From the NCBI GenBank assembly GCA_012520055.1, contig JAAYPA010000004.1, forward strand, positions 1-38,035: a stretch of DNA of 38,035 nt, read 5' to 3'. The translations under genes were made by a program, and so were the position numbers. Shown here piece after piece: positions 13,120-36,259 of this stretch. The notes under the pieces were generated by a model. That model was not told the DNA's origin and did no database searches. It saw nothing but the letters and a program-made list of their open reading frames with translations. Positions within the stretch are counted from its first letter, which is position 1; every line of letters begins with the position of its first letter. The stretch is from Mollicutes bacterium (GTDB lineage: Bacteria > Bacillota_I > Bacilli_A > RF39 > UBA660).

Positions 13120-15078
13120 CTATTCCTCCTTAAGATCTTCTTTAATTAAATTATGAACAATAATTCCGTTAGATATCTCAATTAATTTATCGGCATATTC
13201 TTTACATTTTTTTAAATATTCTTCACTTAAGGTTTCGTCTAAACTCATCGCTCGGTACTCTTCTTTAGAACTATTATAGTATAGCTTATTTGTTAAATAA
13301 TTACCATTAGTAAAAACAATAATATTATCATTTTTAATTTCAAAAATATCGTGACCTAAAGCATAGGGATTATATATACCTAACATATTACCGATAGTAG
13401 GCATAATATCTATCATTCCCATATAATAATCTACTTTTTGACTTGGCTTATAATTTTTACCCCAAATTATAAATGGCGTTTTTTTATTAAGTTCATTTGA
13501 ATAATAATCGTATATAATATAATTTTCATCTTCTTCTGTTAGTATTTCTCCAATTTCAAAATTATAATTATAATAATCGTGATAATTTTTTAATGATAAT
13601 TTAGGATCATGATCTCCATAAAATATAAATATAGTATCATCAAAATAATCACTTTCATTAACATAAGAAATGAAGTCACCTAAAGCTTCATCAGCATAAT
13701 GACTACTACGAATATAATCCCCTAATCTGGTTTCTTCTAAGTAATTAAATTCACCATTTATTAAATTTATTTGTTCAAACATTTCATTATTTTTAAATGG
13801 AGTATGATTGGATAAAGTAATTATTGTTCCCATATAATTTTGATTATTATCTTCAATACCTTTTAATATTGGCATAACTTGTTTAAAGAAAGATTTATCA
13901 GATAAACCTAATCCTACTATTTCATCTATTTCAAATGAAGTTTTAGAATAAAAGTCTGTATAACCCAAAGAAGGATGCATTTTATTGCGGTTCCACATCG
14001 TAGCTTTATTACCATGCATACTAAAGGTATAATATCCTTTATCTTTTAATAAACTAGGTAAAGTAATATATTTACGATCAAAATAATTAACAAATACAGT
14101 TCCGGTAGAAGCTGGCATTAAAGAGGTATTTAAAGTAAACTCCGTATCACTACTGGTTCCTACTCCTACTTGAGGATAAAAATTAGCAAAGTATAAACCT
14201 TCTTTAGTTAGCTGATTTAAATTAGGAGTAATAACTGTATCATTAATAGTTAAATCAACCAGAAAAGACGTCATACTTTCCATATGAACAAAGATAACAT
14301 TTTTATCTTTAAAGATATTGGTATAACTATTATTACTTTTTGGTAATCGGTTTTCGGCATAATAATCATGAAAATTCTTAAAAGCTACGTCGAATCCAAA
14401 CCATGATGTAATAGTCGGTCTTAAAGTATTGACTAAATCACTGGTTTGATAAGCTATAATTCCAAATGTATCAACAATATATTCACGATTCCACTGTTTA
14501 GATAATCTGCTAAAAGCAGTAGCTGACAAGGTAGCTGCACTGACAGCAAAAATAATTATTCCAGTAAATAAATTTTGTTTAAATAATTTATCTCCCTTTT
14601 CAAATTTCGCTATAAAATTAAAGTAATCTTTATTTGCTAATTTCTTATGAATAACGATAAACATTATCGGAAACAATAAATATATAAAATGAATAAATCT
14701 CATCTTATCAAAAACAGCATCTCCGACTTCACCTACTTGACCTAGAGTAGTAAGTAAACTGAATGAGGCAAAAGAATTATAGAATGTGTAATACACTGCA
14801 TTAACAACACCCATAGTAGTATAAATAATCATTAAAATTAAATAATAGCCAAACTGTTTTTGAGGTTTATAAAAGAACCCAAATGATCCTAAAGTGACAA
14901 TAAACCCCAAATCAATCAAAAACGGTTGAACTTTTTGAATTCCACCAATAGTATAAAATCTAATAACTAAACAGCATAATAAAGAAAGGACAACATAAGA
15001 ACAATACTGCCTATTATATTTCACAAAACTAATAAAAGATTTTCCTATCTTATTAATCACTTTCTTTATATTTTTCAT
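13120..15078 (-). CDS. LTA synthase (LtaS)-family sulfatase-fold membrane protein
   Basis: Multi-TM N-terminus; NVIFVHMESMTSFLVDL; GVGTSSDTEFTLNTSLMP; SMHGNKATMWNR; IFYGDHDPKLS. Confidence 0.9.
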   Translation of the reverse strand: MKNIKKVINKIGKSFISFVKYNRQYCSYVVLSLLCCLVIRFYTIGGIQKVQPFLIDLGFIVTLGSFGFFYKPQKQFGYYLILMIIYTTMGVVNAVYYTFYNSFASFSLLTTLGQVGEVGDAVFDKMRFIHFIYLLFPIMFIVIHKKLANKDYFNFIAKFEKGDKLFKQNLFTGIIIFAVSAATLSATAFSRLSKQWNREYIVDTFGIIAYQTSDLVNTLRPTITSWFGFDVAFKNFHDYYAENRLPKSNNSYTNIFKDKNVIFVHMESMTSFLVDLTINDTVITPNLNQLTKEGLYFANFYPQVGVGTSSDTEFTLNTSLMPASTGTVFVNYFDRKYITLPSLLKDKGYYTFSMHGNKATMWNRNKMHPSLGYTDFYSKTSFEIDEIVGLGLSDKSFFKQVMPILKGIEDNNQNYMGTIITLSNHTPFKNNEMFEQINLINGEFNYLEETRLGDYIRSSHYADEALGDFISYVNESDYFDDTIFIFYGDHDPKLSLKNYHDYYNYNFEIGEILTEEDENYIIYDYYSNELNKKTPFIIWGKNYKPSQKVDYYMGMIDIMPTIGNMLGIYNPYALGHDIFEIKNDNIIVFTNGNYLTNKLYYNSSKEEYRAMSLDETLSEEYLKKCKEYADKLIEISNGIIVHNLIKEDLKEE

Positions 15079-16510: not shown

Positions 16511-17308
16511 TTATTTACAACTTTTCTTACTAACCATATAAGTCATGGCAAATGCTGAGATAGCACATACAATGCTTATGAAGGTTATTAAATCAAATCC
16601 CACTTTGCCACGTAGAACTGCCGGAATTGTTGCGATGCAGAAACCTGATACGGCGTAATAAGTATAACCATATAACTTTTTTAACAAAAAATGCATTAAT
16701 AAAACAAAAATTATCGCTCCTATACACAGTCCTATTACTACCGGGAATAATTCGATAATATCAACGTGCGCTATAGCCGTTAAATAAAAATCATAAAAAC
16801 CTAATAAACTTAATAAAACTGTACTACTGATACCGGGAATAATTGTTGATCCAGCAAGGACAAAACCTAACGTCATTTTTTCTATAAAGGTTAATGTTTC
16901 CGCTTGCGCACCATTATAATCATTTAAATTTAATAAAATGATCCCAATGGCTAACGTTATTATCATAGGTATTACAAATCTAATATTAAATCCTTCTTTG
17001 TTGGCTTCTTTGAATAACAAAGGTATAGTTCCTAAAATAAATCCCATAAATGAATATGAAGTAGGCATTGGATATTCTTCTAATAGAAATAAAAGGATAT
17101 TTCCAAATAACACAGTTCCTACTATAACGCCTATACCAATAGGCATTAAAAACAAAATATTCTTTTTTAAATTTTTAAATTTTATTAATTCGGTAATGGC
17201 ATTAATACTTTCTTGATATATACCTAAGATAACCAGTAATGCACTGCCACTTAAACCCGGTACAATGTTACCGATTCCACCTAAAACACCTTTAAAAAAA
17301 TTAACCAA
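16511..17308 (-). CDS. DUF368 membrane protein (polyprenyl-phosphate translocase family)
   Basis: GGIGNIVPGLSGSALLVILGIYQ and AGSTIIPGISSTVLLSLLGFYD repeats typical of DUF368. Confidence 0.85.
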   Translation of the reverse strand: MVNFFKGVLGGIGNIVPGLSGSALLVILGIYQESINAITELIKFKNLKKNILFLMPIGIGVIVGTVLFGNILLFLLEEYPMPTSYSFMGFILGTIPLLFKEANKEGFNIRFVIPMIITLAIGIILLNLNDYNGAQAETLTFIEKMTLGFVLAGSTIIPGISSTVLLSLLGFYDFYLTAIAHVDIIELFPVVIGLCIGAIIFVLLMHFLLKKLYGYTYYAVSGFCIATIPAVLRGKVGFDLITFISIVCAISAFAMTYMVSKKSCK

Positions 17309-17541: not shown

Positions 17542-19023
17542 TTAATTCGACTTTTTAGATACTGTTTTTTTGGATTTTTTTCTTTTCTTTTTTGCTTTTT
17601 TTCTATTAGTAGTCTTCTTTTTAGTTTTCTTCTTTGGTTTCTTAACTCCAGTACTTTTCTTTTTAGTTGCACGTTGCTTTTTCTTCTTAGCAAGATAATA
17701 TTTTTTATATCCAATATAAATTAATCCTATCAGTGATAACAACAAAGCAATAAATAAAATGGTTTTAAAAATATTATGTTTTAAGCACTTAATGTGAATT
17801 TGGTAGGTAAACTTACTACCATTTTCAGCTTTAACCAAAATTTTAACAATGCTACCTTCTTTTAAATCTTCATTACCTATTATATTAACAGTTGCTTTTT
17901 TATCTTCAGCGGTAGCGTTAATATTTAATTTCTTGGTAGATTTTTTAATTGGTAAATAATATACTTTAACTTTTTTACTAAACTTCAATTCATATTTATC
18001 AATTTCTAATGTTTTTAAGTAAAAATTAGCCGATTTATTAGACAATAATTTAGTAATATTTAACACATAGGTTCTTACTTCATTATCTTTATTTTTTATT
18101 TTTATTAAAACTGCATTATCACCATCATGAATATCAATTTTTCGATTACCATAGTCTTTAACTAAACTAAGACTGTCAGACAACATAACATTTAAATTTA
18201 AAGATGTGATATTACTATCAACTTCGATTTGATATTCATATATATTAGGATTAAATTCAAAATCAATAAGATTTTTCTTGGAATCAGTTAATTCAATAGA
18301 GTCAGCTGTAAGATTTGTATCTATAATTTCTTTAACTAAATATAAATAATAGATTCTAGTTATTCCTGTTTCACTTTTTACCGTAATGGGAACAACTGTA
18401 ACCGGATTGTTAGCTTCTATTTTTATTTCTCCTACTCCGGTGATCTTAGAATTTTCATTAATTAAATCAGCTGTTATTTCTATTTTTTCGATATTATTGT
18501 CTATATTTACTTTATATGTATATATTTCTGAATTAAATTTACTTATTGCTTCACTATTAAGGTAAATGTTTTTTAATTGATTCTCTGATGATAATATTTT
18601 TATTTCTGTCTCGGCATTTTCTAAACTTTGCGTAGTATTATCGATACTATTAGTTAAAGTAATATTTTTAATTTTAATTCGTTGTTCCCCATAATCCATT
18701 GTACTTAATAAGAGTATTCCAAATTCTTGTAATTCACTTACCAAAATATTGTTTTTAGTTTTGGCAGTTATTAAATTTTTATCAGCAGAAATTTCCCATA
18801 ATCCGGTAAAATTACTTCTTACTTCATCTAATGATATACCCTTACTTAATTCTAATTCAAAAGTTATTTTATTAAATTCAAAAACAGTTTCTACATTAGT
18901 ACGGCATGCAAAATCTTCAAATTCTTTAAAAGTTGCTTGATCACATTTAATAATAAATTGGTCTTTAGCTTCAACATTTAGTGGTAGTAATAACAAAAAT
19001 ATGAATAAAAGATATTTCTTCAT
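17542..19023 (-). CDS. Type I membrane protein with cadherin-like beta-sandwich repeats and polybasic cytoplasmic tail
   Basis: Signal peptide, Ig-like repeats (LTADSIELTDSKKNLIDFEFNPNIYEYQIEV...; VLNITK), TM FKTILFIALLLSLIGLIYIGY, then K/R-rich tail. Confidence 0.75.
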   Translation of the reverse strand: MKKYLLFIFLLLLPLNVEAKDQFIIKCDQATFKEFEDFACRTNVETVFEFNKITFELELSKGISLDEVRSNFTGLWEISADKNLITAKTKNNILVSELQEFGILLLSTMDYGEQRIKIKNITLTNSIDNTTQSLENAETEIKILSSENQLKNIYLNSEAISKFNSEIYTYKVNIDNNIEKIEITADLINENSKITGVGEIKIEANNPVTVVPITVKSETGITRIYYLYLVKEIIDTNLTADSIELTDSKKNLIDFEFNPNIYEYQIEVDSNITSLNLNVMLSDSLSLVKDYGNRKIDIHDGDNAVLIKIKNKDNEVRTYVLNITKLLSNKSANFYLKTLEIDKYELKFSKKVKVYYLPIKKSTKKLNINATAEDKKATVNIIGNEDLKEGSIVKILVKAENGSKFTYQIHIKCLKHNIFKTILFIALLLSLIGLIYIGYKKYYLAKKKKQRATKKKSTGVKKPKKKTKKKTTNRKKAKKKRKKSKKTVSKKSN

Positions 19024-19112: not shown

Positions 19113-19133
19113 AAAATAGGTTAAAACCTATTT
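19113..19133 (-). terminator. Rho-independent terminator
   Basis: AAATAGGTTTTAACCTATTT followed by TTTT on the minus strand; overlaps the 19128 CDS end. Confidence 0.65.
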
Positions 19134-19505
19134 AAAAGAAAAGATATATTTTACTTGTTCATCATAAGAATAAAAAACAGTATCTTCATCTACTAAAATA
19201 ACATTTGATAGTCTTGCCTCTGTCTTATCAATATTTCCATTATTATCAATAGACCACAAATATGGCGTATTTATTTTAATAAAAGCACGATCTACATTCA
19301 AAACTTCTACATTAAGTTTACATTTATCATCATCTTCAGCAAAAAATAATTTTTTACCACTATATACTTCAAAATTTTTAGATATAGAATTAGATTTAAT
19401 ATATAATCTTTTTGTATCATCATAACTTTTATTGTTAAGTAACATTATAACTCCGACAACAAAAATAATTAAAATAGGTATCATGAATTGAAAAAAATTT
19501 TTCAT
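19128..19505 (-). CDS. Small membrane-anchored hypothetical protein
   Basis: N-terminal TM helix, 125 aa, RBS upstream. Confidence 0.55.
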   Translation of the reverse strand: MKNFFQFMIPILIIFVVGVIMLLNNKSYDDTKRLYIKSNSISKNFEVYSGKKLFFAEDDDKCKLNVEVLNVDRAFIKINTPYLWSIDNNGNIDKTEARLSNVILVDEDTVFYSYDEQVKYIFSFK

Positions 19506-19641
19506 TTTATAACCTGCCTTACCATATACTTAGTATAACATATTAAATCCAAAAAAGGCAGTGCTTTTAATTATCCAAATAAAGAAATAGATATTTTAGT
19601 AATTTTATGGTATAATTCAATGTGTTTTCGAGGTTTTTAAC

Positions 19642-22600
19642 ATGAAAAAATTAAATAAAAAAGATTGTTATTTTTTAAGTATTATACTTTTCATTATTAT
19701 TGGATTTATTATATTCTTAAGAATAAAAGGCTATGCTTTTGGTTCTAATGTTGACTGGTTAAGTCAACATTCTGTATTACCAGATTATTTTCGTCGTATG
19801 TTTTTCGAATCCGGACAAATATTACCAAACTTTGCCTTTAATTTAGGCATGGGACAAAATATCTATTATTTTTCTTATTATGGATTGTTAAGCCCTTTAG
19901 TATTACTTTCATATCTTTTTCCTTTTATTCCTATGTTTTCATATATCCAAATAATCAGTTTAATAATGGTTTTATTAGGAGCTTATTTATTATATCGATG
20001 GATTAATAATAAATATAATTCTAAAATAGCTTTTATTATTACTTTAATGTATGTGCTTTTAGCCCCAATTATTTACCATTCTCATCGTCATATTATGTTT
20101 GTTAATTATTTACCATTCTTAATAGGAACTTTAATTGCTATAGACAATTATTTTATAAATAAGAAAGCCATACCTATCGTTATCAATGTTTTTTTACTGA
20201 TTATGACCAGCTACTTTTTCGGACCGGTGTCTTTAATTGTAATTGGTATATACACTATTTACAAAATACTTCAAAAAAATAAGCAAATTAATTGTAAAAG
20301 TTTTTTACCACTTCTAAAAATAATATATTTTTGTATTGTTGCTATACTATTGGCAGCTATTTTACTGGTACCTACCATATATACTACTTTTGTAGGTAGA
20401 CAAGATACTAATGTTACCTCTAATATTTGGCAATTATTAATACCTAAATTATCTTATACAACAACTTTCTATTATTCATATTCGGCTATGGGTCTTTCAT
20501 TTATTTATATAGTCAGTCTTATATCTTTCTTACTTAAAAAGAAAAAAGAAAACAAATTTCTAGCAATAATATTAATATTATTGTTAACTTTTCCAATCTG
20601 TAATTTTATATTAAATGTTTTCATGTATGTTGATGGTAAAATTTTTCTATCTTTTATTCCCCTTTCATTATTAGTGATAGCCGATTTTTTAAATGATTTA
20701 TTTAAAAACAAATATAATTTTAAAAAGCAAATTGTTATTATAATTCCAGTTATTATTTTTATGATATATTCAGCTATTGGCTATTCTTATGCTAAACTTT
20801 TATGGATTGATATTCCTCTACTGTTAACAACTCTGACTTTAATTTATTTATATAAAAAACCTAATCTTATTTTTATACCAATTCTAGTTATATCTTCGAT
20901 TTGTTTTATTCGAATGAACAAAGGTGATGATTACTCCGATATTATTGCTCGAGGTAATTCAAATGTTTATAAAGAGTTAGTATCTAATATTAGCAAAGAT
21001 AATGTACATCGTACTTCAGATTATACAAATCAACTATATAATGTTAATCAAATTTATACAACTAAACAATTATCACCAAGTTTGTATTCTTCAACATCCA
21101 ATAAACATTATTTTAATTTTGTTCGTAATATTTTTCAAAACGAAATTATCAATCGCGATAATCTTACCGTATCTGCTCCTAAAAATATTTTATATAATAT
21201 TTATACCGGAGTAAAATATATAATAACTAATGAGTCTTCTTTAAAAGGCTATAATTTAATTCAAAATAAAGATGGGATTTCAATATATGAAAACGAAGAT
21301 GTTCTGCCTATCGGGTATGCTTCTGATAAAATAATGAGTCTAAGAGAATTTAATACCTTAAGCTATCCACAAAATATTGATGCTCTACTAAACTATGTGA
21401 TAGTTAATAAAAGTATATCTAATGTATATAAATCCAATATAAAAATGTATGAAACTGATTTTAATATTGAAACTACAGATAATTTAAAATATGAAGTTTT
21501 ATATAATACACTCTATGTAAGTACTGACGGATATGGACAAGCTAAATTAAAACTTACTAATCCAGTTAGCAAAGATGATGTTTTTATTATACGTTTTAAA
21601 ATAAAATATCCTAAAAAAGGTACAGCCTGCAGTACAGATATCTCAATTAATAACGTTACCAATGCCCTATCATGTTCTGATTGGAAATATTTTAATAACA
21701 ATTATACTTTTGAATATGTTTTGTCAAGTGATAAAAACATAGATACTTTAAATGTTGTATTTTCTCCAGGTAAATATGAAATAGAAAATCTAGAATTATA
21801 CACTATAAAGTATGATAGTGTAAAAAATATTAAGAAACAGATTTCTGAAGCTAATTTAAAAACAAGCAATAAAGATAATGTTATCTTAACCGGGGATATT
21901 GATGTTAAAGAAGATGGTTATTTTAAACTAACTATTCCATATGAAAAAAGAGGATTTAAAATTTATTTGGATGATGATTTAATTAAATATGAAAAAGTTG
22001 ATGATACCTTTATCGGTTTTCCTATTGCTAAAGGATATCATACTATTACTATTAAATATCAATCACCATATTTTACATTAGGTATTATTTTATCAATTAT
22101 CGGTTTAATCCTTTTAGAAATACTATTTCTTTATAAATATGTTAATAAGTATTTCTATAATAAGTTTATGACTAGTAAAAAATATTTAATAAAAGCTTTT
22201 AAAAAAATATGGAAATTTTTAAAAGATAATACCGGTTATGTTCATTTATTTTTATCATTATATTTATTAGATATTTCTTTAAGATTCTTCTATTATTCCC
22301 AAATTAAATTTTATCATTGTTATAAATTCGTTCCTAATCTATTTTCGATTATTTGGATAGTATTAATTTTATCTTTAACTAAATTATTTAAATCTAAAGT
22401 AGGTAAATCAATTTACATACTTTATTATGTATTCTATTTAATTATTTTCTTAGTTCAATCAATATATTTCTCTTATTTTACAATTTTCTTTGATTTCAGT
22501 GTGATGTTCTTAGCCGGAGAAGGTATTGATTATCTTGATACCATTTTGGCCAATGTTAAGATTTGGGTTATATTCATAAGTTGTTTAAGTATATATTTAA

Positions 22601-24057
22601 CTATTAAAGGTTTAAAAAATATTAAACATAATGATAAATTTAACACAAAAAAATTATTTATTGTATTAGTTTGTTTTACGTTATTACACTTTACTTTACC
22701 ATACCTACTTGGTAATATTCGTACCAGTGTCGAATGGGATGACTGGCGTAATCCACGTACCGTTTACAATACCTTTAATGATCATAATAAGAGTATGATG
22801 GTATCCGGATTATTTGAATACACTGTAAGAGATTATTATGTTAGTTTTATCAGAAATAATGAGAAAATAACTCCGGAAGAAGAAAAAATCTTAAAAGAAA
22901 ACTTTGATAATCCAACAGTTAATGAAAAAAATAATTATTCCGGAATCTTAGCCGGGAAAAATCTTATCCTTATTCAATTAGAAAGTATCGATAACTTTCT
23001 AATTACTCCGGAAATAATGCCAACAACATATGAATTAATGAAAAACTCTATAAACTTTACCAATCATTATTCATTTACTTCCGGTGGTGGATCAACATTT
23101 AATTCAGAATACATGGTTAATACCGGTTATTCTACCGCATATAATTATAATTTAAGTGCTTATTCATTCAGTCGTAATGATTATAGTTATTCTTTACCAA
23201 ATTTATTAAAAATATATAATTATGTATCAAATGCTTTCCATATGAATACAGGAGAATATTATTCACGAACAGCCAATTATAAAAGTTTTGGTTATAATAA
23301 TTTCTATAGCCTTAAAAATCAAAAAGTTTATAAAGAAAATACTAATTACTGGCTAGATAGAGAACTAATATTGAATGAAGAATTCAATAAACTTCTATTT
23401 AAAAATGAAAATAATAGTTTATTTATGAATTATATTATTACTTATTCAGCTCATATGCCGTTTAACAGCTCTAAAGGTACTTGTAGCCTTCTTACAAATA
23501 TAGAAGGACTAACTGAACTGGAATGCTTAAAATTACAAGCTAAAGAAACCGATTATTTCATTAAACTATTATTAGAAGATTTAGCTAAAAAAGATATGTT
23601 AAAAAATACTGTAATAGTAGCATTTAGTGATCATTACTTATACACTTTAGAAGATAAAACCATTCTTGATAAACATAAAAAAACCGATAGTCAGTTAATT
23701 AATCATACGCCATTCTTTATTTGGAGTAACGGTGATCATAAAAAAACTATCAAAAAAATAAATTCTCAATTAGATATTTTACCTACTATTTTAAATTTAA
23801 TGGGTGTAGATTATTATCAAAATTATTATTTAGGTAGTGACATCTTAAGTCCAAATTATAGCGAATTAGTATTCTTTCCAGATGGTAGCTGGTATAATGG
23901 TTCGACTTATATTAAAGATGGAGAATATTCATTTGGTAAGAAATTATCTGAAGAAAAGATTAATCAAATTAACATAGATGTTAAAAGAAAAATGATACTA
24001 AATGACGCTGTCATGAAATCAAATTATTTCAGCAAAATAAATAGTATAAGAGAATAA
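19642..24057 (+). CDS. YfhO-family membrane protein fused to LTA synthase-family sulfatase domain
   Basis: N-terminal part: YfhO-type multi-TM (GSNVDWLSQHSVLPDYFRRMFFESGQILPNFAFNLGMGQNIYYFSYYGLLSPL...). C-terminal part from about 22230: second TM bundle and sulfatase domain (ILIQLESIDNFL, GGGSTFNSEYMVNTG, HMNTGEYYSR, VAFSDHYLYT). Confidence 0.88.
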   Translation: MKKLNKKDCYFLSIILFIIIGFIIFLRIKGYAFGSNVDWLSQHSVLPDYFRRMFFESGQILPNFAFNLGMGQNIYYFSYYGLLSPLVLLSYLFPFIPMFSYIQIISLIMVLLGAYLLYRWINNKYNSKIAFIITLMYVLLAPIIYHSHRHIMFVNYLPFLIGTLIAIDNYFINKKAIPIVINVFLLIMTSYFFGPVSLIVIGIYTIYKILQKNKQINCKSFLPLLKIIYFCIVAILLAAILLVPTIYTTFVGRQDTNVTSNIWQLLIPKLSYTTTFYYSYSAMGLSFIYIVSLISFLLKKKKENKFLAIILILLLTFPICNFILNVFMYVDGKIFLSFIPLSLLVIADFLNDLFKNKYNFKKQIVIIIPVIIFMIYSAIGYSYAKLLWIDIPLLLTTLTLIYLYKKPNLIFIPILVISSICFIRMNKGDDYSDIIARGNSNVYKELVSNISKDNVHRTSDYTNQLYNVNQIYTTKQLSPSLYSSTSNKHYFNFVRNIFQNEIINRDNLTVSAPKNILYNIYTGVKYIITNESSLKGYNLIQNKDGISIYENEDVLPIGYASDKIMSLREFNTLSYPQNIDALLNYVIVNKSISNVYKSNIKMYETDFNIETTDNLKYEVLYNTLYVSTDGYGQAKLKLTNPVSKDDVFIIRFKIKYPKKGTACSTDISINNVTNALSCSDWKYFNNNYTFEYVLSSDKNIDTLNVVFSPGKYEIENLELYTIKYDSVKNIKKQISEANLKTSNKDNVILTGDIDVKEDGYFKLTIPYEKRGFKIYLDDDLIKYEKVDDTFIGFPIAKGYHTITIKYQSPYFTLGIILSIIGLILLEILFLYKYVNKYFYNKFMTSKKYLIKAFKKIWKFLKDNTGYVHLFLSLYLLDISLRFFYYSQIKFYHCYKFVPNLFSIIWIVLILSLTKLFKSKVGKSIYILYYVFYLIIFLVQSIYFSYFTIFFDFSVMFLAGEGIDYLDTILANVKIWVIFISCLSIYLTIKGLKNIKHNDKFNTKKLFIVLVCFTLLHFTLPYLLGNIRTSVEWDDWRNPRTVYNTFNDHNKSMMVSGLFEYTVRDYYVSFIRNNEKITPEEEKILKENFDNPTVNEKNNYSGILAGKNLILIQLESIDNFLITPEIMPTTYELMKNSINFTNHYSFTSGGGSTFNSEYMVNTGYSTAYNYNLSAYSFSRNDYSYSLPNLLKIYNYVSNAFHMNTGEYYSRTANYKSFGYNNFYSLKNQKVYKENTNYWLDRELILNEEFNKLLFKNENNSLFMNYIITYSAHMPFNSSKGTCSLLTNIEGLTELECLKLQAKETDYFIKLLLEDLAKKDMLKNTVIVAFSDHYLYTLEDKTILDKHKKTDSQLINHTPFFIWSNGDHKKTIKKINSQLDILPTILNLMGVDYYQNYYLGSDILSPNYSELVFFPDGSWYNGSTYIKDGEYSFGKKLSEEKINQINIDVKRKMILNDAVMKSNYFSKINSIRE

Positions 24058-24126: not shown

Positions 24127-25977
24127 ATGAAGAATCTTGGAATAAAGCTTAAAAAAACAAATAAAAATTTTAGATTTTTCTTTTTTGCAGTATTTTTCCT
24201 ATATTTAGTAAGCTTAATATTATTAGCAAGAGGCTTACTACTTTTAAGTGGTATTGAAACTTTGTTAAGGTTCTTTTTATTATTTGTCTTTTTTACTCTA
24301 TTCTTAATTTATACGGTTTCAAACTTTGTTTTTTTAATATTAAAAAAACATGGAATGATTATCACTATCAATATTATTGCTATTATATTGGGAGTATTTA
24401 ATTTTGGAGTTCATTACTATATTAATAAAACTTATGGATACATAGATGCCATAAGCAAAGATGAAACCATTTATACAACAAACTTAATATCTCTTACAAG
24501 TACTTCTCAAATTAACACTGTAGGCATGATATCTGAAGAAAGCGATATTGAAGGTCATATTCTACCAAAGGAATATTTAAATAAGAATAAAAACAATTAT
24601 CAAATAACTTATTATGATGATTATAATGCTCTTTTAAATGATTTATATGATCAAAAAATAGACGGAATATTTATTACCGCCAATTATGTCTTAATTTATA
24701 ATAACATTGAAAAATTTACCAATATCAAAGATGATACAGAGATTTACGCTTCTTACTCTAAAAAAATGAAAAAACAGGAATACGGAGAAACCTCAAATAA
24801 ACCAATTACAGAACCATTTACTATTCTTTTAATGGGTGTAGATTCCGAGCGCGACGGCTTAGCTCAAAATGCTGCATTTAACGGAGACACTTTAATGCTT
24901 ATTAGTTTTAATCCTAAAACATTATCAGCAACTACCTTTAGTATTCCAAGAGATATGTATGTTCCTATTGTTTGTAATAATAATCGTCGTTATAAAATTA
25001 ATTCAGCTGCTGGATATGGAACCAAATGTATGATTGATACCATAGAAAAATGGACTACCTTAGATATTGATTATTACATGAAAATTAATTTTAAAGGAGT
25101 TGTTGACTTGGTAGACGCCTTAGGTGGTATATATGTCGATGTTCCTAAACCAACTAATAAAGAAAAATATTGTGCTGATGATAGTAATAGAACTGGAGAG
25201 ATTTGTTTAACACCTGGATATCAACATCTTAATGGTGAACAAGCTTTAGCTTTAGCCAGAATTAGAAAAGCATTTGCAAAAGGTGATTATTCCAGAGTTC
25301 AAAACCAACAACTGGTTTTGGAAGGAATGATTCAAAAAGCTAAAGGAATCAGAAATATTAATAGTTTTTATAATTTGTTAAATGCTATAAGTCGCAATAT
25401 TGAAACAAATATGTCTGCTAAAGAAATGTTAAATTTTTATAACGTCGGTAAAAATATTTTAACTAAAATTAATTTAGGAGAAAAAGATTTTATCAATATT
25501 CAAAAAACTTTCTTAAATGGTTATAACATTGACGTTTATGGTACTTCAGCTGAAATGTATTACGAAGATAGTTTAAATGCTATTATTAAAGCTATGAAAG
25601 TAACATTAAGACTAGAAAAACCAGAAATAATTAAAACCTTTGATTTTTCGGTAAATGAACTATATGAAATTGAAATAATTGGAAAAAATAAATATGGCCA
25701 ACGAGAAGATGTATTACCTAATTTCATTGATAAAAATTTAGATGAATTATACAATTGGAACAGTACCAGAAATATTACTATTAATATTAATTATAAAGAA
25801 AGCAATATTTGTATAAATAATACGATATTAGAACAAAGGGAAAGAAAAGGATCATTAGTATCAGAAATTTCTTCACTAACTGTTACGGTTTGTAAAAATA
25901 TCAATGAACCAATTAACAAAAATGAAGAAAATATTGAAAATAATATTGACAATCCAATTGAAGAAATGGTTGAATAA
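24127..25977 (+). CDS. LytR-CpsA-Psr (LCP) family protein
   Basis: PFTILLMGVDSERDG...GDTLMLISFNPKTLSATTFSIPRDMYVPI...KINSAAGYG...VVDLVDALGGIYVDVPKP...LNGEQALALARIRK. Confidence 0.93.
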   Translation: MKNLGIKLKKTNKNFRFFFFAVFFLYLVSLILLARGLLLLSGIETLLRFFLLFVFFTLFLIYTVSNFVFLILKKHGMIITINIIAIILGVFNFGVHYYINKTYGYIDAISKDETIYTTNLISLTSTSQINTVGMISEESDIEGHILPKEYLNKNKNNYQITYYDDYNALLNDLYDQKIDGIFITANYVLIYNNIEKFTNIKDDTEIYASYSKKMKKQEYGETSNKPITEPFTILLMGVDSERDGLAQNAAFNGDTLMLISFNPKTLSATTFSIPRDMYVPIVCNNNRRYKINSAAGYGTKCMIDTIEKWTTLDIDYYMKINFKGVVDLVDALGGIYVDVPKPTNKEKYCADDSNRTGEICLTPGYQHLNGEQALALARIRKAFAKGDYSRVQNQQLVLEGMIQKAKGIRNINSFYNLLNAISRNIETNMSAKEMLNFYNVGKNILTKINLGEKDFINIQKTFLNGYNIDVYGTSAEMYYEDSLNAIIKAMKVTLRLEKPEIIKTFDFSVNELYEIEIIGKNKYGQREDVLPNFIDKNLDELYNWNSTRNITININYKESNICINNTILEQRERKGSLVSEISSLTVTVCKNINEPINKNEENIENNIDNPIEEMVE

Positions 25978-33087: not shown

Positions 33088-34647
33088 TTAATCAACTACA
33101 TAAGGATTTGTTAATGTCCCTGATCCAGTTACGACGACATCCGGTTTTAAATTAATAACTGGTCTTATTGCGACATATTCATCGTTAATGAAATATGTGC
33201 TTATCTTAGAGCTGGAGGATACACCATAAAGATTTTCTCTAAAAGGAGTCATTGTCCAATACAAATAATTGAAATATAAATAATTATCTCTATTTGATGT
33301 ATCAAATAATAGCCCAGCTATTGACACTTCATCGGCGGTTATAAGCCCGACCGGATATGTTAGTGCACCGTTACCAATATGTTTTTTGGTAACCGTAAAT
33401 TGGTCATTTATAAAGCCACATTTTAAAGTCGGTGCTTTGTTTAAATATAATCTATAAAACCCTGCATAGTAATTTTCACCAGGAAAATTACCATATCCCG
33501 GACTAATATTATATCCTCCAACTTCACTGCTTAATAAACGATCGTTACAAAATAAATTATCAGCTATTTTATTTTCAAATGTTTTACTTAAAATGTTTTC
33601 TTCATACCATTCATCTAAAACTATTTTAATATTACTTGAGGTGTCATTAGTAACTGCCTCTATTCGTGATTTAGAAGCTTCTCCGTTAGGTCCACCATAC
33701 ATATATCCTACATACTTAATATCATCAGTATATTCATTCCATTTGTCAAGATTAATATATACATCGTCATCTTCTCCGCTCATAGTACCATTTTGCTTAA
33801 ATTCTTCTTCTGTTCCGTTATATAGTATTCGAATAGAGCCATCTCCATTGATACGGACTATTTTCCACTGAAAACCACCAAATATTAAATTATTCTTAAG
33901 TAAGCTATTGTTACCACGAAAATAATAGCTAGTTCCATATTCATCTTCCATAGCGTATAAACCACTATCTGAAGAAGATGAAATAGCTGCAAAGCTTGGA
34001 TTACCTTTTGCTTCGATAACTGATGGTCCTCCCGCTTCAGATAAAATTATATCTTTTAAACAATTACCTGATACACATGGATCAGCATAATTTTCAATTA
34101 AAATATGAGCTTTAAAAGTCTGATTTATATCACCTGATTGATCATTACCTGTTTCATAATAATAAAATTTCATTTGATAGCTGTGAATTGCACCATCTAC
34201 ATCTCCTATAAATTTACCGACACCCAGTTCTATTCTATTGGTACCTACATAAATATCATCTGGAATAGCCGGTACAATATAACCATTATCAGATGTATTG
34301 GTGCTGGTCATTGTAAAACTAATAGCATTTTTACTTATACCATTTTCATCTATTATTAAACTAATTTTATAATACATTTCAGATTGTTCAATTGTACTTG
34401 TTCCAGTTACTGTAAAATCTTTTGTTCCAAAAGCTTCATCTGATGGATATAAACCAGTAGCTTCAATTCCATTTCCACCATCAAACTCTATTTCCATTTT
34501 ACCGGAATCTAAAGTAATGGTAGTATCGGTTTCAACCCCGGTAATATTGGCAACAAAATATGAATATGTTATTCCTACTAACATAAAAAAGATAACAATA
34601 AATATACAATATTTAAGAATTTTATTTATATTTTTTATTACTTTCAT
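33088..34647 (-). CDS. Surface protein with TasA-like leader and variable C-terminal domain (paralog 1)
   Basis: KYCIFIVIFFMLVGITYSYFVANITGVETDTTI leader; FGGFQWKIVRINGDGSIRILYNG; TYPVGLITADEV; RPVINLKPDVVVTGSGTLTNPYVVD end. Confidence 0.75.
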   Translation of the reverse strand: MKVIKNINKILKYCIFIVIFFMLVGITYSYFVANITGVETDTTITLDSGKMEIEFDGGNGIEATGLYPSDEAFGTKDFTVTGTSTIEQSEMYYKISLIIDENGISKNAISFTMTSTNTSDNGYIVPAIPDDIYVGTNRIELGVGKFIGDVDGAIHSYQMKFYYYETGNDQSGDINQTFKAHILIENYADPCVSGNCLKDIILSEAGGPSVIEAKGNPSFAAISSSSDSGLYAMEDEYGTSYYFRGNNSLLKNNLIFGGFQWKIVRINGDGSIRILYNGTEEEFKQNGTMSGEDDDVYINLDKWNEYTDDIKYVGYMYGGPNGEASKSRIEAVTNDTSSNIKIVLDEWYEENILSKTFENKIADNLFCNDRLLSSEVGGYNISPGYGNFPGENYYAGFYRLYLNKAPTLKCGFINDQFTVTKKHIGNGALTYPVGLITADEVSIAGLLFDTSNRDNYLYFNYLYWTMTPFRENLYGVSSSSKISTYFINDEYVAIRPVINLKPDVVVTGSGTLTNPYVVD

Positions 34648-34657
34648 ATTTTACTTC

Positions 34658-36259
34658 TTAATCTATTACTTGATATGGATTAGTTAATGTTCCTTCGCCA
34701 GTCACAACTACATCTGATTTTAAATTAATGACTGGACGCAAACTGTCATATTCTATTGTTCTAGTAACAAGACTACCAGATATATTAGCATGATAACCTA
34801 CGCCCCAAATAGTCGCTTCAGCACTTCCGTCAAAAAAAGCATATGGGGACATTGTATGGAATGGAAGCTCTACAAACAAATAATTATCTACATTCTGGGT
34901 ACCATAAATTAGACCAGCCATCATTACCTCATCTATCGTAATTAACCCAACTGGATACTTTAATGATCCATTACCAAGACTTCTTTTAGTAACTGTAAAC
35001 TGATCATTTTGTTGTTTACATTTTAATGTTGGGGTTTTCGCTGTATATATTCTGTATCTTGGAGCATAACTAGCATAAAATTGTCCATATCCTGGATCTT
35101 TAATATTTTTTCCAAGAATTTCTTCTACAAATTGACGATCATTACAGAATAAATTATCCGCTATTTTATTTTCAAAAGTTTTATCTAAAAAGCTTTGTTT
35201 ATACCATAAATCCAATTGTTCTTTGGCATCACTATCAGTTTCATTAAATGTGGCAGCCGATGATGTAAAACCATGTCTTTGGGTAGAAGCAACTCCTTTA
35301 GGCCCGCCATACATATATCCTACATATTTATTATCATTATAAATACTTGAATACGAATAAAAGCCTAGGACTGTCTCCTCGCCTATATCATTCATTGTAT
35401 CATTTTGATTAAACTGTTCTTTAGTGCCATTGTACATTATTCTTATTGATCCATCTCCGTTAATACGGATGATTTTCCACTGAAACTCTCCAAAAATTAA
35501 ATTATTGTTTAATATATTTTTGTTACCACGATAATAATAAGAAGTACCATATTCATCTTCCATAGCATACAACCCCGTATCACTTTCAGTAGAGATGACT
35601 GTAAAATTAGGATTACCTTTAGCTTCTATTGCTGCTGCTCCTCCACCTTGAGCTAAAATCTTATCTTTTAAACATTCCCCAGTTACACATGGGTTATTAT
35701 AACTTTCAATTGAAACATGCGCCTTGAAATTTTTATTGATATCATTTGATTGATCAGTATTAGTTTCATAAAAATAGAACTTCATCTGGTAAGTATGTAC
35801 AGCATTGTTAACAGGTCCTATGAATTTACCTATACCTAGTTCAATATTATTTGTTCCAACATAAATATCTTCTTCTATTGAAGGAACTACCATACCATTT
35901 CCAGAAGTATTAGTACTAGTTAATTTAAAACTAATCGCATTTTTACTTAAAGTGTTTTCATCAATTACTAAACTTATTTTGTAATTCATTTCGGAAAGGT
36001 CAATTGTACTTGTCCCGGTTATAGTAAAATTTTTAGTACCGAAAGATGTATCTGAAGGAGCTAGTCCGGTAGCATTTATAGCCGGGCCACTACTATAAAC
36101 AATATCCATGTTACCAGAATCCATTGTTATAGTGGTATCTGTCTCTACTCCTGTTAATCCAGCAACGAAAAAAGAATAAGTTATTCCTATTAACATAAAG
36201 AATATTGATATAAAAATTACATATTTAAGAATTTTATTTACTATCTTTAATACTTTCAT
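34658..36259 (-). CDS. Surface protein with TasA-like leader and variable C-terminal domain (paralog 2)
   Basis: Collinear with paralog 1 over most of its length (GLTGVETDTTITMDSG, EFQWKIIRINGDGSIRIMYNGT, RPVINLKSDVVVTGEGTLTNPYQVID). Confidence 0.75.
   Translation of the reverse strand: MKVLKIVNKILKYVIFISIFFMLIGITYSFFVAGLTGVETDTTITMDSGNMDIVYSSGPAINATGLAPSDTSFGTKNFTITGTSTIDLSEMNYKISLVIDENTLSKNAISFKLTSTNTSGNGMVVPSIEEDIYVGTNNIELGIGKFIGPVNNAVHTYQMKFYFYETNTDQSNDINKNFKAHVSIESYNNPCVTGECLKDKILAQGGGAAAIEAKGNPNFTVISTESDTGLYAMEDEYGTSYYYRGNKNILNNNLIFGEFQWKIIRINGDGSIRIMYNGTKEQFNQNDTMNDIGEETVLGFYSYSSIYNDNKYVGYMYGGPKGVASTQRHGFTSSAATFNETDSDAKEQLDLWYKQSFLDKTFENKIADNLFCNDRQFVEEILGKNIKDPGYGQFYASYAPRYRIYTAKTPTLKCKQQNDQFTVTKRSLGNGSLKYPVGLITIDEVMMAGLIYGTQNVDNYLFVELPFHTMSPYAFFDGSAEATIWGVGYHANISGSLVTRTIEYDSLRPVINLKSDVVVTGEGTLTNPYQVID

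Follow-up and report, generated by a model that had tools for sequence, protein, structure and literature searches.

Lipoteichoic acid (LTA) is synthesized and glycosylated by separate membrane enzymes, and how a glycosyltransferase of the GT-C fold finds the polymer is an open question. A 38,035-nucleotide contig of a Mollicutes bacterium (order RF39, family UBA660; JAAYPA010000004.1 of assembly GCA_012520055.1), analysed over its whole length and called the window below, bears on it with one gene at 19642-24057 on the plus strand, which encodes a YfhO-family and an LtaS-family domain in one chain. Is this a genuine fusion, and if so, do its halves serve one product? An earlier reading made from the letters alone (the sequence-only reading) took it for a protein that couples LTA glycosylation to LTA polymerization. 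Our analysis confirms a genuine fusion with both active sites kept, probably a bifunctional membrane enzyme, and it departs from that reading on polymerization.

Architecture and active sites of the fused protein

The frame is open for 1471 codons with no internal stop, and Pfam finds exactly two families in the chain: YfhO (PF09586; aa 13-818, E 2e-59, 202 bits against a gathering score of 28.5), which covers positions 5-835 of the 835 in the model, and Sulfatase (PF00884; aa 1106-1389, E 2e-32). AlphaFold2 models, whose alignments were built from the window and fetched sequences, are confident for both parts, with a predicted local distance difference test score (pLDDT) of 89.6 and a predicted TM-score (pTM) of 0.88 for aa 1-870, and 87.7 and 0.82 for aa 791-1471. 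In Foldseek, the best Protein Data Bank (PDB) matches of the first model are the GT-C enzymes AftD, EmbC2, OST/PglB, and ArnT, with ALG12 and AftA also retrieved. The second model retrieves LtaS of Listeria, Bacillus, and Staphylococcus aureus (4uoo, E 2e-21, TMt 0.78) and, structurally, also GacH (6dgm, E 3e-9). Searched by sequence against solved structures with phmmer, the LtaS half matched LtaS and LtaP ectodomains, two sulfatases weakly, and nothing else; it is closer to LtaS (2w8d, 102 bits, E 2e-28) than to LtaP (4uop, 89 bits), and GacH was not matched among these structures. NCBIfam profiles score below their cut-offs, LtaS (NF053595; aa 906-1461) with 136 bits against an equivalog cut-off of 970, and PgfM1 (57 bits) as one of two weak matches, with PgfM2, within the YfhO half. 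The sequence-only reading had thus recognized the parts of the chain correctly (Table 1).

From model helices, hydropathy, and the positive-inside rule, with helix boundaries that are our own assignment, the YfhO half is predicted to have 14 helices and its N-terminus inside; its 383-residue ectodomain would lie outside and the linker inside, followed by five LtaS-type helices and a sulfatase domain outside, so that the catalytic domains of both halves are predicted on the same, outer face of the membrane. In the model, the YfhO ectodomain sits between the last two transmembrane (TM) helices of the GT-C half, and it has weak Foldseek matches to the carbohydrate-binding modules CBM86, CBM6, CBM35, and CBM4 (E 0.002-0.02). 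The linker, aa 836-865, bridges the two halves, from the final TM helix of YfhO to the initial helix of the LtaS-type bundle. Met843 was considered as an internal start for the LtaS half and rejected, as it has no Shine-Dalgarno-like sequence upstream and is not conserved.

A candidate catalytic residue of the YfhO half, Asp38, is invariant in 91 of 91 aligned YfhO proteins. In the GT-C enzyme GtlB, two Asp residues of the first outer loop are essential (PMC5836110). The LtaS motifs noticed in the sequence-only reading are indeed retained: Glu1114, Thr1152, His1200, Arg1209, His1271, Asp1330, and His1331 are all invariant, Thr1152 across 43 proteins of the LtaSf group, fused and unfused. In LtaS, their counterparts bind the metal and the phosphate and provide the nucleophile (PMC4192460).

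Two departures from LtaS run through the whole clade. Trp354 (S. aureus numbering) is replaced by Tyr, and Asp-His is followed by YLYTLED, whereas LtaS has YGIS-x-NH. In Listeria LtaS, the Ser and His after the Asp-His motif form a second glycerol phosphate (GroP)-binding site that is required for LTA production; the S486A variant almost abolishes polymerization and keeps about half of the lipid hydrolysis, and LtaP is without the site (PMC4192460). Since this site (Ser486/His489 in Listeria numbering) is absent from the LtaS half, chain polymerization by the fusion protein is unsupported by the known signature, and the LTA polymerization proposed for it, which also falls short of the NF053595 cut-off, is not sustained. 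The LtaS-like half may instead be a single-step GroP transferase, like LtaP or GacH. Note here that none of the LtaS-like proteins found in the genome carries the second site, so it may be an unsuitable measure for this lineage, and the signature could fail for enzymes this divergent.

Table 1. Features of the fusion gene and of related genes in the window
Feature	Position	Strand	Basis or remark
Second LtaS-family gene, different clade	13120..15078	-	Trp kept; Ser replaces catalytic Thr
PopT/DUF368 undecaprenyl-phosphate translocase, lipid-carrier recycling	16511..17308	-	Also near the fusion in G037 and STF1_161
Promoter-like site TAGATA-17-TATAAT, extended -10	19588..19616	+	Just 5' of the ATG
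Fusion gene, YfhO GT-C glycosyltransferase and LtaS-family GroP transferase	19642..24057	+	1471 aa, ATG start
YfhO domain, aa 13-818, GT-C membrane fold	19678..22095	+	PF09586, AlphaFold2, Foldseek
Asp38, first extracellular loop	19753..19755	+	Candidate catalytic Asp of the GT-C half
Beta-rich extracytoplasmic domain, aa 428-810, CBM-like	20923..22071	+	AlphaFold2 model, topology, Foldseek
Linker, aa 836-865	22147..22236	+	9 Lys/Arg, 1 acidic residue; predicted cytosolic
Five-helix LtaS-type membrane bundle, aa 866-1023	22237..22710	+	AlphaFold2 model, hydropathy
Sulfatase/LtaS ectodomain, Pfam span aa 1106-1389	22957..23808	+	PF00884, Foldseek
Glu1114, metal ligand (S. aureus LtaS Glu255)	22981..22983	+	Invariant
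Thr1152, catalytic nucleophile (S. aureus LtaS Thr300), in GGGSTFNSE	23095..23097	+	Alignment to PDB chains
HMNTGEYYSR: His1200 and Arg1209 kept; LtaS Trp354 is Tyr1207, as in LtaP	23239..23268	+	Alignment
DHYLYTLED: metal ligands Asp1330/His1331 kept; canonical second-GroP-site S-x-N-H absent	23629..23655	+	Alignment
LCP (LytR-CpsA-Psr) ligase	24127..25977	+	Next conserved gene, same strand

Distribution and origin of the fusion

Surveyed taxonomically, the same two-domain architecture, Pfam-confirmed in each case and with no stop between the domains, occurs in six further metagenome-assembled genomes (MAGs; G171, G037, G147, G402, RUG12877, and STF1_161), in proteins of 1456-1471 aa; identity is higher for the LtaS half (58-72%) than for the YfhO half (about 45-52%). 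An intact fusion in seven separate MAGs is neither chance nor mis-assembly, and on this ground an assembly chimera is ruled out. On contig L051, a closely related YfhO half is cut off where the contig stops. No further fusion appeared in overlapping sets of genomes sampled from the family (193), the order (385), and the class (395), in which few candidates were scored per genome under E-value limits and rarer cases may be missed. A single clade unites the fused forms in the LtaS tree, and another does so in the YfhO tree, where it also takes in the truncated L051 protein (both quick trees without bootstraps; Shimodaira-Hasegawa-like approximate likelihood ratio test, SH-aLRT, 100 in each); one fusion event is the simplest reading. 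The fusion has persisted in at least two genera, between which identity is about 50%. Purifying selection acts on both halves: dN/dS (nonsynonymous to synonymous substitution rates; Nei-Gojobori, two close pairs) lies at 0.11-0.19 for the membrane part and the ectodomain of YfhO as well as for the LtaS bundle and the sulfatase domain. Relaxation is confined to the short linker and to one of the two pairs.

A fusion candidate in G165 (open frame 1388) is actually a 640-aa LtaS-like gene. In G340, of the same genus, the fusion was not found: the LtaS-like gene (L196:4228-4416) has no YfhO in front of it and is truncated by the contig end after 63 aa, and no YfhO was found in that genome, possibly through loss of the YfhO half or as the ancestral state. 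Our literature search over open-licence papers found no published YfhO-LtaS or YfhO-GtrA fusion, which is weak evidence of novelty.

In most genomes of the family, YfhO and the LtaS-like gene lie apart. In three genomes of genus g52 (L067, L068, and L130), however, they belong to an operon LtaS-YfhO-CsbB-GtrA with overlapping ends, and in genera g81 and g39 only a few kb separate the two genes; GtrA is close by in g81 and in one of the g39 genomes. A rough binomial estimate for this proximity in the three genera is about 2.6e-5, on the only partly true assumption that genera are independent. The g52 and g81 proteins fall near the fused clade in the YfhO tree. YfhO-GtrA operons, some with CsbB, also occur elsewhere, and outside the family the closest YfhO proteins are in YfhO-GtrA-CsbB operons (L171, L173, and L175). 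The four-gene operon of unfused relatives, which sets the LtaS-like gene next to a complete three-component glycosylation system, points to the origin of the fusion, and it lends independent backing to the rosetta-stone coupling of sugar addition to GroP transfer that had been proposed. The gene order is reversed, with LtaS first in the g52 operon and YfhO N-terminal in the fusion, so its origin included a rearrangement and not the mere loss of a stop codon.

YfhO has also fused with GtrA, at eight loci that require several changes on the YfhO tree. These proteins of about 950-1000 aa (L073:7996-10992, L077:5392-8238, L123, L125, L126, L161, L162, and L179), often encoded beside CsbB, would unite a glycosyltransferase and a flippase in a single chain; frames of 950-1020 aa in G003, G006, G356, G308, and others are fusions of this kind. 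Long frames in G427 and G288 (1146-1148 aa) were tried as YfhO-CsbB fusions and rejected, their YfhO open reading frames (ORFs) being 824 and 848 aa from the first start codon. In G231 (L156:4449-6383 and the following ORFs), the LtaS and CsbB-GtrA of the operon are kept, and YfhO is missing, with a 494-aa reverse-strand ORF instead.

What the fusion may do

A lipid-sugar synthase, to be sought elsewhere in the genome according to the sequence-only reading, has two candidates. One CsbB homologue (C10:6426-7364) is 67% identical to the operon CsbB, and another lies on contig C40, with an orthologue in all the fusion genomes searched; the CsbB homologues score 280-339 bits against PgfS of NCBIfam, below its cut-off. 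A GtrA homologue is present in the genome of the window (G000) and in G037. Near the C10 homologue are a 565-aa candidate GT-C (DUF6541-like) and a sulfatase-type membrane protein, more distantly related and phosphoglycerol-transferase-like, which comes in addition to the LtaS-like genes; 3' of these three genes lies a fusion of a HAD hydrolase with a GtrA flippase (L060:3423-4430).

We consider it probable, on the strength of the fusion and of the conserved operon of unfused genes, that the protein links the sugar decoration of an LTA-like polymer to the transfer of GroP onto it. In this account, which builds on the architecture, active-site conservation, common origin, selection, and operon linkage described above, we infer the donor lipids, the shared acceptor, and the activity, and the proposed chemistry follows family knowledge and the conserved active sites. 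A CsbB-like GT2 enzyme would make an undecaprenyl-phosphate-sugar donor inside the cell, which a GtrA-like protein, where present, would flip; the YfhO half would then move the sugar to an extracellular glycopolymer that its CBM-like ectodomain may hold. The LtaS-family half would draw GroP from phosphatidylglycerol via a Thr1152 phospho-intermediate and pass it to the same growing or anchored molecule, in one step or repeatedly.

Several observations weigh against such coupling. GtrA was not found in G171, G402, and G147, three of five fusion genomes (MAGs 83-89% complete), and each of the fusion genomes searched carries another YfhO, canonical and unfused, beside a diacylglycerol-kinase-like gene (a profile identification made in the genome of the window). 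The LtaS-like clade is found in several genomes without any YfhO, including G340, and many YfhO genes occur without an LtaS-like gene, so the partnership is not obligatory. YfhO proteins elsewhere act on wall teichoic acid (WTA; Listeria) or are kin of the protein-glycosylating PgfM. Finally, the acceptor of YfhO is not readable from sequence. The second YfhO loci are L166:4018-6663 and L167-L170; diacylglycerol recycling would fit an LtaS-type reaction.

The main rival, a minority possibility in our judgement that nonetheless deserves weight, is a decoration enzyme that makes single transfers in the manner of GacL plus GacH or of LtaP: the GT-C half would add a sugar to a polymer or glycolipid and the LtaS half one GroP, perhaps onto that sugar, and no polyglycerol-phosphate chain would be made. 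The missing Ser486/His489 and the LtaP-like Tyr throughout the clade argue for it (PMC4192460), as does the precedent of the group A carbohydrate, on which GacL (a GT-C enzyme) and then GacH (a GroP transferase) act (PMC8327497), and the structural match to GacH is in line with it. So is the LCP ligase gene, which lies 3' of the fusion on the same strand in seven of seven loci, after small insertions in two, with no terminator-like site between the two genes. Of six genomes, all incomplete MAGs, five lack DltB-type MBOAT proteins and four lack WTA glycerophosphotransferases; this also favours single transfer and lowers the likelihood of a classical WTA acceptor in most of the six. By sequence, however, the LtaS half is nearer to LtaS than to GacH, and a missing motif in a divergent clade is no proof of lost processivity, the more so where no LtaS paralogue found in the genome has it. 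Rather unlikely, in our view, is a self-contained extracytoplasmic synthase of a new teichoic-acid-like polymer, in which sugar from undecaprenyl-phosphate-sugar and GroP from phosphatidylglycerol would be alternated or combined into a decoration or repeat that the neighbouring LCP ligase would attach to the wall; a new polymerase with a glycosylated polyol phosphate as its product, as the sequence-only reading offered, is possible.

We hold it quite improbable that the halves have separate products, with YfhO glycosylating surface or secreted proteins, as PgfM does, or a wall polysaccharide, and the fusion bringing only membrane co-localization or co-expression with an LtaS-like enzyme. The sub-threshold PgfM1 and PgfS matches and the action of Listeria YfhO on WTA would fit this, and the YfhO-GtrA fusions show that YfhO readily fuses with its neighbours. 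Yet GtrA is itself a pathway partner, so YfhO fusions mark functional links, and YfhO and LtaS-like genes are also adjacent, unfused, in other genera. That adjacency, along with small genomes of about 1 Mb, is in turn what speaks for a fusion without functional consequence, fixed by drift in a reduced genome, which we regard as the least likely of these explanations: the reversed order relative to g52 means that simple stop-codon loss is insufficient, and the fusion has been kept in two genera or more with dN/dS below 0.2.

If decoration and GroP transfer are coupled as we favour, the fusion suggests that in a small group of uncultured Bacilli polymer building and sugar-coating have become physically coupled. 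A natural fusion, with unfused relatives in a CsbB/GtrA operon, is genomic evidence that both steps serve one product, and it makes the coupling accessible to study within one protein. It also indicates that an LtaS-family enzyme without the known polymerization site can be tied to a glycosyltransferase, which points to a chemistry of GroP decoration among uncultured Bacilli with small genomes, the majority apparently without Dlt and classical WTA polymerases.

Comparison with known systems

CsbB, GtcA, and YfhO glycosylate LTA in Bacillus subtilis and S. aureus (PMC5836110, PMC8035078), and the fusion shares with that system a YfhO GT-C with a large ectodomain between the last two TM helices and the CsbB-like and GtrA-like genes of its own genome and of relatives' operons. 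It differs in that the GT-C is covalently joined to an LtaS-family enzyme and that GtrA was not found in every fusion genome. The statement in the sequence-only reading that the Listeria counterpart of YfhO acts on LTA needs correction: Lmo1079 modifies WTA, and Listeria LTA is modified by GtlB (PMC8035078). Like type I LtaS of S. aureus, Listeria, and Bacillus, the fusion has five TM helices and a sulfatase-fold ectodomain with the catalytic Thr, the metal ligands Glu/Asp/His, and the phosphate-binding His/Arg/His, but it differs in the Tyr for Trp354, the lost S-x-N-H, and its NF053595 score. The Tyr, in the H-x6-Y-x-R motif, and the missing second site are shared with LtaP, the Listeria LTA primase; the fusion differs in that its sequence is nearer to LtaS than to LtaP and in its joined glycosyltransferase. 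GacL and GacH of Streptococcus pyogenes likewise pair a GT-C with a GroP transferase, acting in turn on one wall polymer, but they are separate genes, GacL is a PMT-2-type GT-C, and the GacH match is structural, not by sequence. PgfM1, PgfM2, and PgfS of Streptococcus mutans are YfhO-family membrane glycosyltransferases with a CsbB-like partner; there the acceptor is protein and no LtaS-like domain is involved, and the fusion scores below the cut-offs of these profiles.

Other genes of the window

The separate LtaS-like gene at 13120-15078, on which the sequence-only reading based a possible distinct product for the fusion, is present, but it lies on the minus strand, belongs to a different clade, and is not the sole extra copy, as two further LtaS-like genes are found on other contigs of the same genome. 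Its protein has GTSSD at the nucleophile site and Asp-His-Asp in place of Asp-His-Tyr, both common to its clade in the family. The promoter-like site upstream of the fusion lies in an AT-rich region where such matches are no more frequent than expected by chance. Two adjacent ORFs of 519 and 533 aa (33088-34647 and 34658-36259, minus strand) have no Pfam match. A Cadherin-like-domain protein (17542-19023) and a 125-aa protein of no known family (19128-19505) are conserved, beside the fusion or close to it, in several of the fusion genomes.

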